From: Arthrobacter castelli DSM 16402 | GTDB lineage: Bacteria > Actinomycetota > Actinomycetes > Actinomycetales > Micrococcaceae | Assembly (NCBI RefSeq): GCF_000430705.1 | Contig: NZ_AUMN01000001.1 | Span: 248,001 to 312,000, forward strand | Direction: 5' to 3' | Length of the DNA stretch: 64,000 bases | Shown here: positions 1,289 to 5,081 of the stretch, in pieces | Position numbering within the stretch: the first letter of the stretch is position 1 | How the letters are laid out: each line of letters opens with the position of its first letter | Made by a program: the position numbers and the translations under genes | Notes under the pieces: generated by a model | Database searches by the model: none | What the model was told of the DNA's origin: nothing | What the model saw: the letters and a program-made list of their open reading frames with translations, nothing else

Positions 1289-1317
1289 TTGACAGCCGGG
1301 CCGGGGAGCGGAAAACT
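1289..1317 (+). promoter_or_regulatory. Probable ilvBNC promoter
   Basis: A perfect -35 TTGACA (1289-1294) is followed after 17 nt by AAAACT (1312-1317), a plausible actinobacterial -10. Transcription would begin about 6 nt later, at or next to the ATG of the leader peptide (1324), giving a leaderless transcript. Confidence 0.6.
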
Positions 1318-1323
1318 ACTGGT

Positions 1324-1368
1324 ATGCAGTTCGTTTCCGTAGTACTTCTTACCAAGCGCGTGATGTAG
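1324..1368 (+). CDS. ilvB leader peptide (14 aa, Val/Leu-rich)
   Basis: The short frame reads [14 protein letters not shown] and ends at TAG 1366-1368. It contains consecutive Val-Val-Leu-Leu codons (1339-1350), with further Val codons on either side. No Shine-Dalgarno is present. The ATG lies about 6 nt after the proposed -10, so translation is probably leaderless. The product is expected to have no function itself: ribosome stalling on Val/Leu codons would report shortage of charged tRNA and control the attenuator that follows. Leader peptides of this kind precede ilvB in Corynebacterium and other Actinobacteria. The call rests on codon content, position and the overlapping RNA structures. 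Confidence 0.75.
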
Positions 1369-1442
1369 GCCCAGTCCTCACACACTTGGTAACTACGTTA
1401 CGCGCTTACCCCGACGCCGTCCGCTGGCCGAGGGGTTTTTTT
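1349..1442 (+). promoter_or_regulatory. Transcription attenuator of ilvBNC
   Basis: Two competing helices overlap the leader peptide. In one, 1349-1356 pairs perfectly with 1385-1392 (8 bp). In the other, 1354-1368 pairs with 1393-1407 over 15 bp including two G-U pairs. Immediately downstream, CCCC (1409-1412) and GGGG (1432-1435) enclose a GCC/GGC inner stem, followed by seven T (1436-1442), an intrinsic terminator. The position of stalled or terminating ribosomes would decide which helix forms. I could not identify a segment that clearly pairs with the terminator arm, so the switching route is inferred. Confidence 0.65.
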
Positions 1443-1520: not shown

Positions 1521-3419
1521 ATGAGTAAAGGAACGCCAGCCAGCCCCGCGCTGATGGCCGCAAAATCCCCGGTGCCGTCCGCGTCCGGAACCAAGCGGGC
1601 AGGCACCCGCCTTGCCAGCGCAGCTCACTCCGTCTCTCCTGTACCCGGGCCCAACCACACCATTGGACCGGTGGAAATGACTGGCTCACAAGCCATCGTC
1701 CGCTCACTGGAGGAACTCGGTGTCGACGATGTCTTCGGGCTGCCGGGTGGGGCGATCCTGCCCACGTATGACCCGTTGATGGACTCGGAGCGGATCAACC
1801 ACGTGCTGGTCCGCCATGAACAGGGTGCAGGACACGCCGCGCAGGGCTACGCGATGGTCACGGGCCGGACCGGTGTCGCCATTGTCACCTCCGGACCAGG
1901 CGCCACCAACCTGGTGACGGCTATTGCGGATGCGCACATGGACTCGGTGCCGATGGTGGCCATCACCGGCCAGGTGGCGAGCTCTGTGATTGGCACGGAC
2001 GCCTTCCAGGAAGCTGACATTGTGGGCGTGACCATGCCGGTGACCAAGCACTCCTACCTGGTGACCGATCCCGAACAGATCCCGCGGGTGATGGCCGAGG
2101 CCTTCCATCTGGCATCCACCGGCCGGCCTGGCCCGGTGCTGGTCGACGTCGCCAAGGACGCGCAGGCCGGGCCGATGACGTTCTCCTGGCCGCCGAAGAT
2201 CGACCTGCCCGGCTACCGGCCCACCGTGAAGGGCCACCCCAAGCAGGTGCGGGAGGCGGCCCGGCTGATCGCGTCGGCGCAGCGGCCGGTGCTCTACGTC
2301 GGCGGCGGCGTTATTAAGGCCCACGCTTGTGACGAACTGGCCGAATTGGCCGAAACGACCGGGGCGCCAGTGGTCACCACCCTGACCGCCCGCGGGGCCT
2401 TCCCGGACTCGCATGAACAACATGTCGGGATGCCGGGAATGCACGGCTCGGTCTCCGCCGTCACATCCCTGCAGCAGGCAGACCTGCTGATTGTGCTCGG
2501 CGCCCGGTTCGACGACCGTGTCACCGGTGTGCTCTCGTCCTTCGCCCCGCACGCGTCAGTGATTCATGCCGACATCGACCCGGCCGAGATTTCCAAGAAC
2601 CGGACCGCTGATGTGCCGATCGTCGGCTCATTGGCCGAAATCCTTCCGGACCTGTCCAAGGCCGCCGAAGAGGAGTTCGGCAAGACCGGACGGCCCGCGC
2701 TGGAGCCATGGTGGTCACAGCTGAATCGGCTGCGCGATACGTACCCGCTGGGCTGGACCGAGCCCGACGACGGCCTGTCCGCCCCGCAGAATGTGATCAA
2801 GCAGATCGGGGCGCAGACCGGTCCCGAAGGTGTCTACGTGGCCGGCGTCGGCCAGCACCAGATGTGGTCGGCTCAATTCATCAAGTACGAACGCCCGCAT
2901 GCGTGGCTGAACTCGGCCGGACTGGGCACCATGGGCTACTCTGTCCCGGCGGCGATGGGCGCGAAGGTCGGAAGCCCCGATCGCACCGTGTGGGCCATCG
3001 ACGGCGACGGCTGCTTCCAGATGACCAACCAGGAACTGGCCACTTGCGCGATCAACAACATCCCGGTCAAGGTCGCCGTGATCAACAACTCCTCACTGGG
3101 CATGGTGCGCCAGTGGCAGACCCTCTTTTACGATGGCCGCTACTCGAACACCGACCTGGACACCGGCCACAACACCCGGCGGATCCCGGACTTCGTGAAG
3201 CTGGCCGAAGCCTACGGGTGCGCCGGCCTGCGGTGCGAGCGGGATGAGGACATTGAGGACACCATCAAGCAGGCGTTGGAGATCAACGACCGTCCCGTCG
3301 TCGTCGATTTCGTGGTCAGCCCCAACGCCATGGTGTGGCCAATGGTCCCGGCCGGCGTCAGCAACGACCTGATCCAAATCGCCCGGAATATGACCCCTCA
3401 ATGGGAAGAGGAAGACTAG
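1521..3419 (+). CDS. ilvB: Acetolactate synthase, catalytic (large) subunit
   Basis: This thiamine-diphosphate enzyme condenses two pyruvates, or pyruvate with 2-ketobutyrate, to acetohydroxy acids, the committed step of Val/Leu/Ile synthesis. I chose ATG 1521 (632 aa) because GGAAGAG lies just upstream and the longer frame would run back through the attenuator terminator. After a low-complexity N-terminal stretch of about 50 residues the fold begins at [21 protein letters not shown]. The TPP site shows [14 protein letters not shown] followed by VINN. It is followed 20 nt later by ilvN, its regulatory subunit, and then ilvC. Control is expected through the leader-peptide attenuator and by valine feedback on the IlvN subunit. 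Confidence 0.97.
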
Positions 3420-3439
3420 TGGGAAGAGGAGCAGTAGAC

Positions 3440-3952
3440 ATGAGCCGCCACACCTTGTCCGTGCTGGTCGAAGACAAACCGGGTGTCCTCACACGGGTGG
3501 CCGGGTTGTTCGCCCGGCGCGCCTTCAATATCCACTCCCTGGCCGTCGGCCCCACCGAGATCGAGGGCATGTCCCGCATCACGGTGGTCGTCGACGCCGA
3601 AGGTGACCTGCTGGAGCAGGTCACCAAACAACTCAACAAACTCATCAACGTGATCAAAATTGTTGAGCTTGCCTCCGACGCCTCCGTGCAGCGCGACCAC
3701 ATCATGGTCAAGGTGCGCGCCGACGCCACGAGCAGACTGCAGGTCACCCAGGCTGCAGAATTGTTCCGTGCCTCGGTGATCGATGTGTCCACCGACTCGT
3801 TGATCGTCGAAGCCACTGGCGTTCCCGAGAAACTCAACGCACTGCTTGCCGTGCTGGAACCTTTCGGGATCCGTGAGATCGTGCAGTCGGGAACCCTTGC
3901 CATCAGCAGGGGCGCGAAGTCGATGAGCGACCGGGCCTTACGCTCAGCATGA
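3440..3952 (+). CDS. ilvN: Acetolactate synthase, regulatory (small) subunit
   Basis: This 170-residue protein binds IlvB and mediates feedback inhibition by branched-chain amino acids. It starts with MSRHTLSVLVEDKPGVLTRV, a typical N-terminal ACT domain (about residues 1-75), followed by the small-subunit C-terminal domain (about 85-165). ATG 3440 has a good ribosome site, GGGAAGAGGAG at 3421-3431. An in-frame upstream extension would overlap ilvB and lacks support. The 20-nt gap to ilvB indicates co-transcription and coupled assembly of the holoenzyme. Confidence 0.96.
   Translation: MSRHTLSVLVEDKPGVLTRVAGLFARRAFNIHSLAVGPTEIEGMSRITVVVDAEGDLLEQVTKQLNKLINVIKIVELASDASVQRDHIMVKVRADATSRLQVTQAAELFRASVIDVSTDSLIVEATGVPEKLNALLAVLEPFGIREIVQSGTLAISRGAKSMSDRALRSA

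Positions 3953-4010: not shown

Positions 4011-5081
<1,071 letters not shown>

Follow-up and report, generated by a model that had tools for sequence, protein, structure and literature searches.

An ilvB leader of Arthrobacter castelli and its relatives across the Actinomycetes: two adjoining conserved helices and regulatory codons that match the downstream gene

The ilvGMEDA, ilvB and leu attenuators of Escherichia coli and Salmonella combine a leader peptide containing regulatory codons with an intrinsic terminator. The locus described here shares this plan. It differs in that the leader peptides of E. coli and Salmonella are led by a Shine-Dalgarno sequence and their antiterminator overlaps the terminator.

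Leader peptides before ilvB are already known in Corynebacterium and other Actinobacteria, as a preliminary description of our locus had correctly noted. The ilvBNC attenuator of C. glutamicum (ilvB-II motif) has, like the present element, an upstream open reading frame (uORF) rich in codons for branched-chain amino acids (BCAA), a P1 hairpin over the end of the uORF and an intrinsic terminator, P2, and its uORF is leaderless, as is predicted for ours (PMC11857589, PMC10272879). The peptide encoded there, MTIIRLVVVTARRLP, agrees with the [ILV]-x-x-R register. A Val-to-Ala change abolished valine-dependent expression there, and loss of the leader start codon cut expression by 80% (PMC11857589). 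The description of the ilvB-II motif was limited to Corynebacterium, with an antiterminator drawn as overlapping the terminator, whereas in the family described below the corresponding helices abut and a third helix is lineage-specific. In Streptomyces, ilvL (MRTRILVLGKRVG) and the leuS leader LeuL2 (MRAVRLLLSEPR) are leaderless by RNA-seq, as is predicted for our element, and resemble it in their hairpins and U-tract; they were linked neither to each other nor to other actinobacterial leaders (PMC8079986). The ilvB1 attenuator of Mycobacterium tuberculosis has a BCAA uORF (LVVI) and a terminator ending at about +126, and an LVVI-to-AAAA change abolished its codon-dependent induction; its antiterminator was inferred from folding (PMC13236596), and it is compared with the present leader by description. 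The ilvB-OMG and Leptospira ilvB motifs likewise place a BCAA uORF before ilvB, with a different consensus (PMC10272879).

The window, as we call the whole 64,000-nucleotide stretch analyzed, comes from Arthrobacter castelli DSM 16402 and carries ilvD, ilvB, ilvN, ilvC and serA in this order. The leader lies between ilvD (end 1174) and ilvB (start 1521), and all features given below are on the forward strand. The promoter (1289-1317), with counterparts in relatives, consists of TTGACA (1289-1294), a 17-nt spacer and AAAACT (1312-1317). The leader-peptide ORF (1324-1368) starts with ATG at 1324, 6 nt past AAAACT, and ends with TAG at 1366-1368; homologous short ORFs in about 140 relatives are in register with helix B (see below). 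It contains the run GTA GTA CTT CTT (Val Val Leu Leu, 1339-1350). The intrinsic terminator T (1408-1442), recognized by sequence, fold and covariation, pairs CCCC (1409-1412) with GGGG (1432-1435), with an inner GCC/GGC, and ends in a U-tract (1436-1442); A1408 can pair with U1436 at its base. Downstream are ilvB (acetolactate synthase large subunit, 1521-3419; NF005860), ilvN (small subunit, 3437-3952; TIGR00119) and ilvC (ketol-acid reductoisomerase, 4056-5081; TIGR00465), all above the cut-offs of these models. The promoter, uORF, mutually exclusive helices and T7 terminator of the preliminary description were all found in place 5′ of ilvBNC. With its position directly 5′ of ilvB (1521-3419), an Ile/Val/Leu codon run whose register is kept in relatives, and a terminator with U-tract between uORF and ilvB (1408-1442), the element very probably belongs to the already known actinobacterial ilvB leader-peptide attenuators.

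No Rfam family matched the element or its relatives above the gathering score. A crude promoter and terminator scan picked up neither signal of the window, owing to the AAAACT form of the -10 and to an internal loop in the terminator. A palindrome, CGGACA-ACGG-TGTCCG, lies 5′ of the -35 at 1269-1284 and resembles the NdgR/LtbR operator (PMC4340878); relatives have palindromes of the type GTCCA-N5-TGGAC or TGAGAC in the same place, with the same resemblance.

By DNA search, the leader was recovered at 86% identity from the sister species and also from further genera of the family. When the upstream regions of 80 named ilvB genes were compared, the same layout was seen in Arthrobacter, Pseudarthrobacter, Paenarthrobacter, Glutamicibacter, Kocuria, Nesterenkonia, Cellulomonas, Promicromonospora, Isoptericola, Brevibacterium, Janibacter, Kineococcus, Jiangella, Actinomadura and others. 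A covariance model, R1, built from 34 of the ilvB leaders found in this way, matched 291 of the 395 Actinomycetes genomes sampled, in 116 of 138 genera, and recovered the Streptomyces ilvL peptide (L218, L220) and leuS copies. R1 had no match at the Microbacteriaceae ilvB loci L065-L068, L071, L073, L078, L080, L082-L085, L087-L089, L091, L093, L094, L096, L097, L100, L101 and L107-L110. The Microbacteriaceae ilvB genes examined were without leader peptide, helix B and terminator. In the class search, none of the listed genomes of one family (f4) had a match; this family is probably Microbacteriaceae too. As the promoter-to-start spacing, uORF, helix B and terminator recur in about 140 ilvB leaders, and helix B and T covary, a chance origin of the arrangement is untenable.

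The window sequence predicts that the ilvB transcript begins at 1324 or 1 nt upstream, that is, a leaderless start in this organism. A -10-like hexamer lay 6 or 7 nt 5′ of the start codon in 131 of the 136 leaders with a recognized promoter; the promoter pattern permitted 4-9 nt, so that the informative part of this count is the concentration at 6-7. Mapped homologues agree. The C. glutamicum ilvB transcription start is 1 nt from the leader ATG (PMC11857589), the S. lividans leader is transcribed leaderless according to RNA-seq (PMC8079986), and the Streptomyces-like loci L218 and L220 encode a leader peptide identical to that of S. lividans. The earlier proposal of a leaderless Val/Leu leader peptide and attenuator before ilvB was well supported by these data. 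It had also remarked on the start codon falling on the transcription start of the promoter; the spacing fits this, but a leaderless start is the rule for this ilvB leader family and not peculiar to this genome.

Three helices can be drawn in the window. Helix B (1354-1407), identified by class-wide covariation and proposed here as an antiterminator, has arms at 1354-1368 and 1393-1407 with the core 5′-GCGCG at 1356-1360. Helix A (1338-1397), drawn from folding and comparison, pairs 1338-1342 with 1393-1397 and 1349-1356 with 1385-1392; we propose it as a lineage-specific anti-antiterminator. The third is T. A and B are mutually exclusive because they cross and have 1354-1356 and 1393-1397 in common. 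The preliminary description had suggested folding 1324-1445 and aligning it with relatives, and both supported the element: the minimum-energy fold was B plus terminator, its stability exceeded that of 197 of 200 shuffles (z -2.7), and the alignment returned the recurrent layout described above. Enforcing helix A cost about 5 kcal/mol relative to B.

Comparison across the class separated these helices. In a class-wide alignment, double-sided changes occurred in 55 cells of B and T; shuffles gave 24.5 and slid controls no more than 23. In a second alignment of 49 distinct sequences to the model, B and T had 90 double-sided changes against 36, though this alignment was fitted to the structure and leans towards it. 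We also used an alignment-free test, in which duplex energies of cognate segments were compared with those of segments swapped among cluster representatives; this test is blind to pairings whose two sides never vary. At thresholds leaving at least 16 representatives, cognate arms were preferred with z of -7 to -9.5 for B and -6 to -10 for T. For helix A, z was about -1 to -1.8 (p 0.04-0.15), a weak class-wide preference. Within Micrococcaceae, helix A was formed in 68% of cells, with no excess of compensatory changes. Segments after the stop codon or in the loop gave no consistent cognate-over-swapped signal with either half of the terminator. B and T alone covary class-wide; helix A and all overlapping antiterminator candidates do not. 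Of the two mutually exclusive helices noted earlier, both stand in the window but only B is kept class-wide, A being patchy even in Micrococcaceae. The earlier remark that an antiterminator pairing is not obvious holds for the whole class, with no overlapping antiterminator conserved anywhere.

Three candidate elements were rejected. An overlapping antiterminator, formed by post-stop, loop or uORF segments with both terminator halves, was no better in cognate than in swapped combinations; in the window, the weak candidate of this kind, GGCCCAG (1368-1374) with CTGGCC (1424-1429), spanning 1368-1429, was likewise without support in this test. Helix A as a universal anti-antiterminator was rejected because it is patchy and lacks excess compensatory changes. 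A pseudoknot between the B loop and T was dismissed as a general explanation, since loops of 3-6 nt are common among B hairpins.

Two distances in the leader are nearly fixed. First, the first nucleotide of the last Ile/Leu/Val codon lay 8 nt 5′ of 5′-GCGCG in 115 of 143 leaders, with another 18 at 5 nt; the distance in the window is 8 (1348 to 1356). About half of the leaders in the distance counts were gathered independently of R1, from ilvB upstream regions and DNA similarity, and the remainder came from R1 matches, among which the spacing built into R1 could be over-represented. A stop codon precedes 5′-GCGCG in L017, L018, L027, L047, L053, L079, L081 and L095, and both 5′-GCGCG and its distance from the BCAA codon are retained. 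Since the distance is maintained where the stop precedes B (L053, L079, L081), 5′-GCGCG is constrained as RNA and not as the codons for Lys-Arg-Val. Second, in 137 of 138 leaders the distance between the outer end of B and the terminator stem was -2 to +3 nt, despite B spans of 15-75 nt. B and T were 0-3 nt apart in 131 of the 138 and overlapped, by 1-2 nt, in 6. A single nucleotide, A1408, separates them in the window.

These distances bear on a classical attenuator, in which helix A would be a pause or anti-antiterminator hairpin and B an antiterminator overlapping T, as in the three-hairpin model of C. glutamicum. A, B and T do correspond to H1, H2 and H3 of that model (PMC11857589), and A and B cross in the window. 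The antiterminator of such an attenuator excludes the terminator through shared bases, and here no overlapping pairing was supported and B and T abut. The rarity of B/T overlap, the lack of excess compensatory changes in helix A within Micrococcaceae and its weak preference class-wide make the classical scheme rather unlikely for this family.

In genomes with two or three R1 matches, the extra copies precede cimA (citramalate synthase of the isoleucine pathway, TIGR00977) and leuS (TIGR00396). Among the I/L/V residues, the share of Ile was 64% in 26 distinct cimA leaders, compared with 15% in 126 distinct ilvB leaders (Fisher p 1.6e-24), and that of Leu was 92% in four leuS leaders (for example MQHALLLP* and MRRNLLLT*; p 2.8e-5); relatedness among the sequences means that these p values are overstated, but the direction is clear. 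Examples of cimA leaders are VPSQVIIISRRAG, VLHHVIIIR* and MHSTIIIRERVDV. The codons thus match the downstream gene, Ile for cimA and Leu for leuS, which argues that they are the sensor; among our comparative results this match is the strongest indication that they are.

The cimA copies with Ile codons were L169, L201-L203, L213, L251, L254-L262, L265-L267, L269, L271, L273, L274, L276, L277, L282-L285 and L288. We found no paper on cimA leaders in the literature searched, which had few subscription journals; leader peptides before leuS were already known (PMC1262725, PMC8079986). The host genome has a leader, MKTLLL* (L292:1319-1392), predicted to be leaderless, directly before leuS; its tight B hairpin of 9 bp is followed, 2 nt further on, by a terminator. 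At a permissive threshold, R1 found the ilvB copy alone in this genome, and the leuS copy was found by inspecting the leuS upstream region. R1 scored this copy weakly (E 0.62), yet placed it exactly on the start codon.

The codon match also bears on whether ilvB is mainly under an operator-binding regulator of the NdgR/LtbR type, with the leader a vestige. The palindromes 5′ of the -35 in relatives are similar to the NdgR motif (PMC4340878), and codon mutants of the S. coelicolor ilvB leader were reported to be without effect (cited in PMC1262725). The strong purifying constraint on the codons, B and T, the tracking of the downstream gene by codon identity and the demonstrated codon-dependent regulation in C. 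glutamicum and M. tuberculosis make a vestigial leader very improbable.

We consider it highly probable that the leader is a ribosome-mediated, translation-dependent transcription attenuator of ilvBNC. Sequence and comparison show the uORF, the conservation of helices B and T, the two distances and the codon-gene match, and they point to a leaderless position of the uORF. We infer that B may be the ON structure and may act by abutment, excluding T sterically within the RNA exit channel without any overlap in sequence. Transcription would start on the A of the leader AUG, and a 70S ribosome would initiate on the naked 5′ end. As long as Val- and Leu-tRNA are charged, the ribosome would reach UAG and cover the 5′ arm of B; B would be prevented, T would form and RNA polymerase would halt at the U-tract (OFF). 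Under Val or Leu shortage, it is the ribosome that would stall, on GUA GUA CUU CUU, blocking helix A and leaving most of B free. B would then form right against the base of T and stop it from closing, so that ilvBNC is transcribed (ON). Without translation, helix A would form first in the window leader and block B, leading to termination. Such blocking of B in untranslated RNA, where helix A is present, would explain the lower expression on start-codon loss in C. glutamicum; the model can accommodate that result only on condition that helix A (H1 of that study) takes over.

The role of B was proposed from the smallest copies. Loops of 3-6 nt are frequent among B hairpins, and the tight hairpins (L095, L198 and the leuS copies) cannot accommodate helix A or a separate antiterminator in their loops, which leaves B as the obvious candidate for sensing the position of the ribosome. 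In these copies, B is free with the ribosome on the first regulatory codons and covered with the ribosome at the stop. Stalling must mean ON, because of the Val-to-Ala result in C. glutamicum and the LVVI-to-AAAA result in M. tuberculosis (PMC11857589, PMC13236596); B is therefore most simply the ON structure. Since B shares no bases with T but always ends within about 3 nt of it, abutment is proposed. That B is an antiterminator by abutment is a tentative reading, which we hold to be somewhat short of probable. Its extension to all actinobacterial ilvB, cimA and leuS members, with B occupying the space at the terminator base in the polymerase exit channel without sequestering T bases, is possible but doubtful. 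Among the points against the mechanism, a ribosome stalled on the last Leu codon would already cover part of the B arm, and the S. coelicolor codon mutants were reported to have no effect (cited in PMC1262725).

Equilibrium folding did not reveal a switch. With a ribosome footprint, B and T coexisted and T was favoured wherever the ribosome stood, the margin being at least 3.3 kcal/mol in the window and about 7 kcal/mol on average class-wide. The equilibrium terminator probability was flat against ribosome position in all leaders tried. As T wins at every ribosome position, thermodynamics alone does not give the switch.

The same calculations provide the main point for an opposite role of B, as an anti-antiterminator, with the true antiterminator formed by the post-stop region and the terminator (in the window, the GGCCCAG:CTGGCC candidate). 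A ribosome stalled on the last BCAA codon would mask 5′-GCGCG and free the post-stop pairing with T, and a ribosome at the stop would mask that pairing. Consistent with this, the preference for T in the window was lowest (3.3 vs 7.4 kcal/mol) when the ribosome masked the B arm, the 8-nt distance puts 5′-GCGCG inside a ribosome stalled at the final Leu codon, and post-stop pairings with the terminator can be drawn in many Micrococcaceae. The energy dip was absent in other genera, however, cognate post-stop pairings were no better than swapped ones, and such pairings are impossible from tight B hairpins. We regard this role of B as unlikely.

Improbable to a greater degree is that B is mainly a roadblock or pause hairpin synchronizing ribosome and polymerase, with switching set by the distance between them. 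In its favour, B begins 8 nt past the A-site nucleotide of the final BCAA codon, close to where mRNA enters the ribosome. A roadblock would leave the 0-3 nt gap to T unexplained, and a lagging ribosome would favour T under starvation, which is the wrong sign.

As far as the literature searched shows, four aspects are new: the class-wide unity of the element, its two fixed distances, the cimA copies with Ile codons and the absence of a conserved overlapping antiterminator. Actinobacterial attenuation is exploited in strains for valine production and is relevant to rifampicin-resistant M. tuberculosis. A single conserved helix beside T, together with near-fixed distances, reduces the question of the antiterminator to simple spacer and compensatory mutations. 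If B does act by abutment throughout, this actinobacterial family would have a non-overlapping RNA antiterminator that is reused for three amino acid specificities, with the sensor codons exchanged to suit the gene: Val/Leu/Ile for ilvB, Ile for cimA and Leu for leuS.
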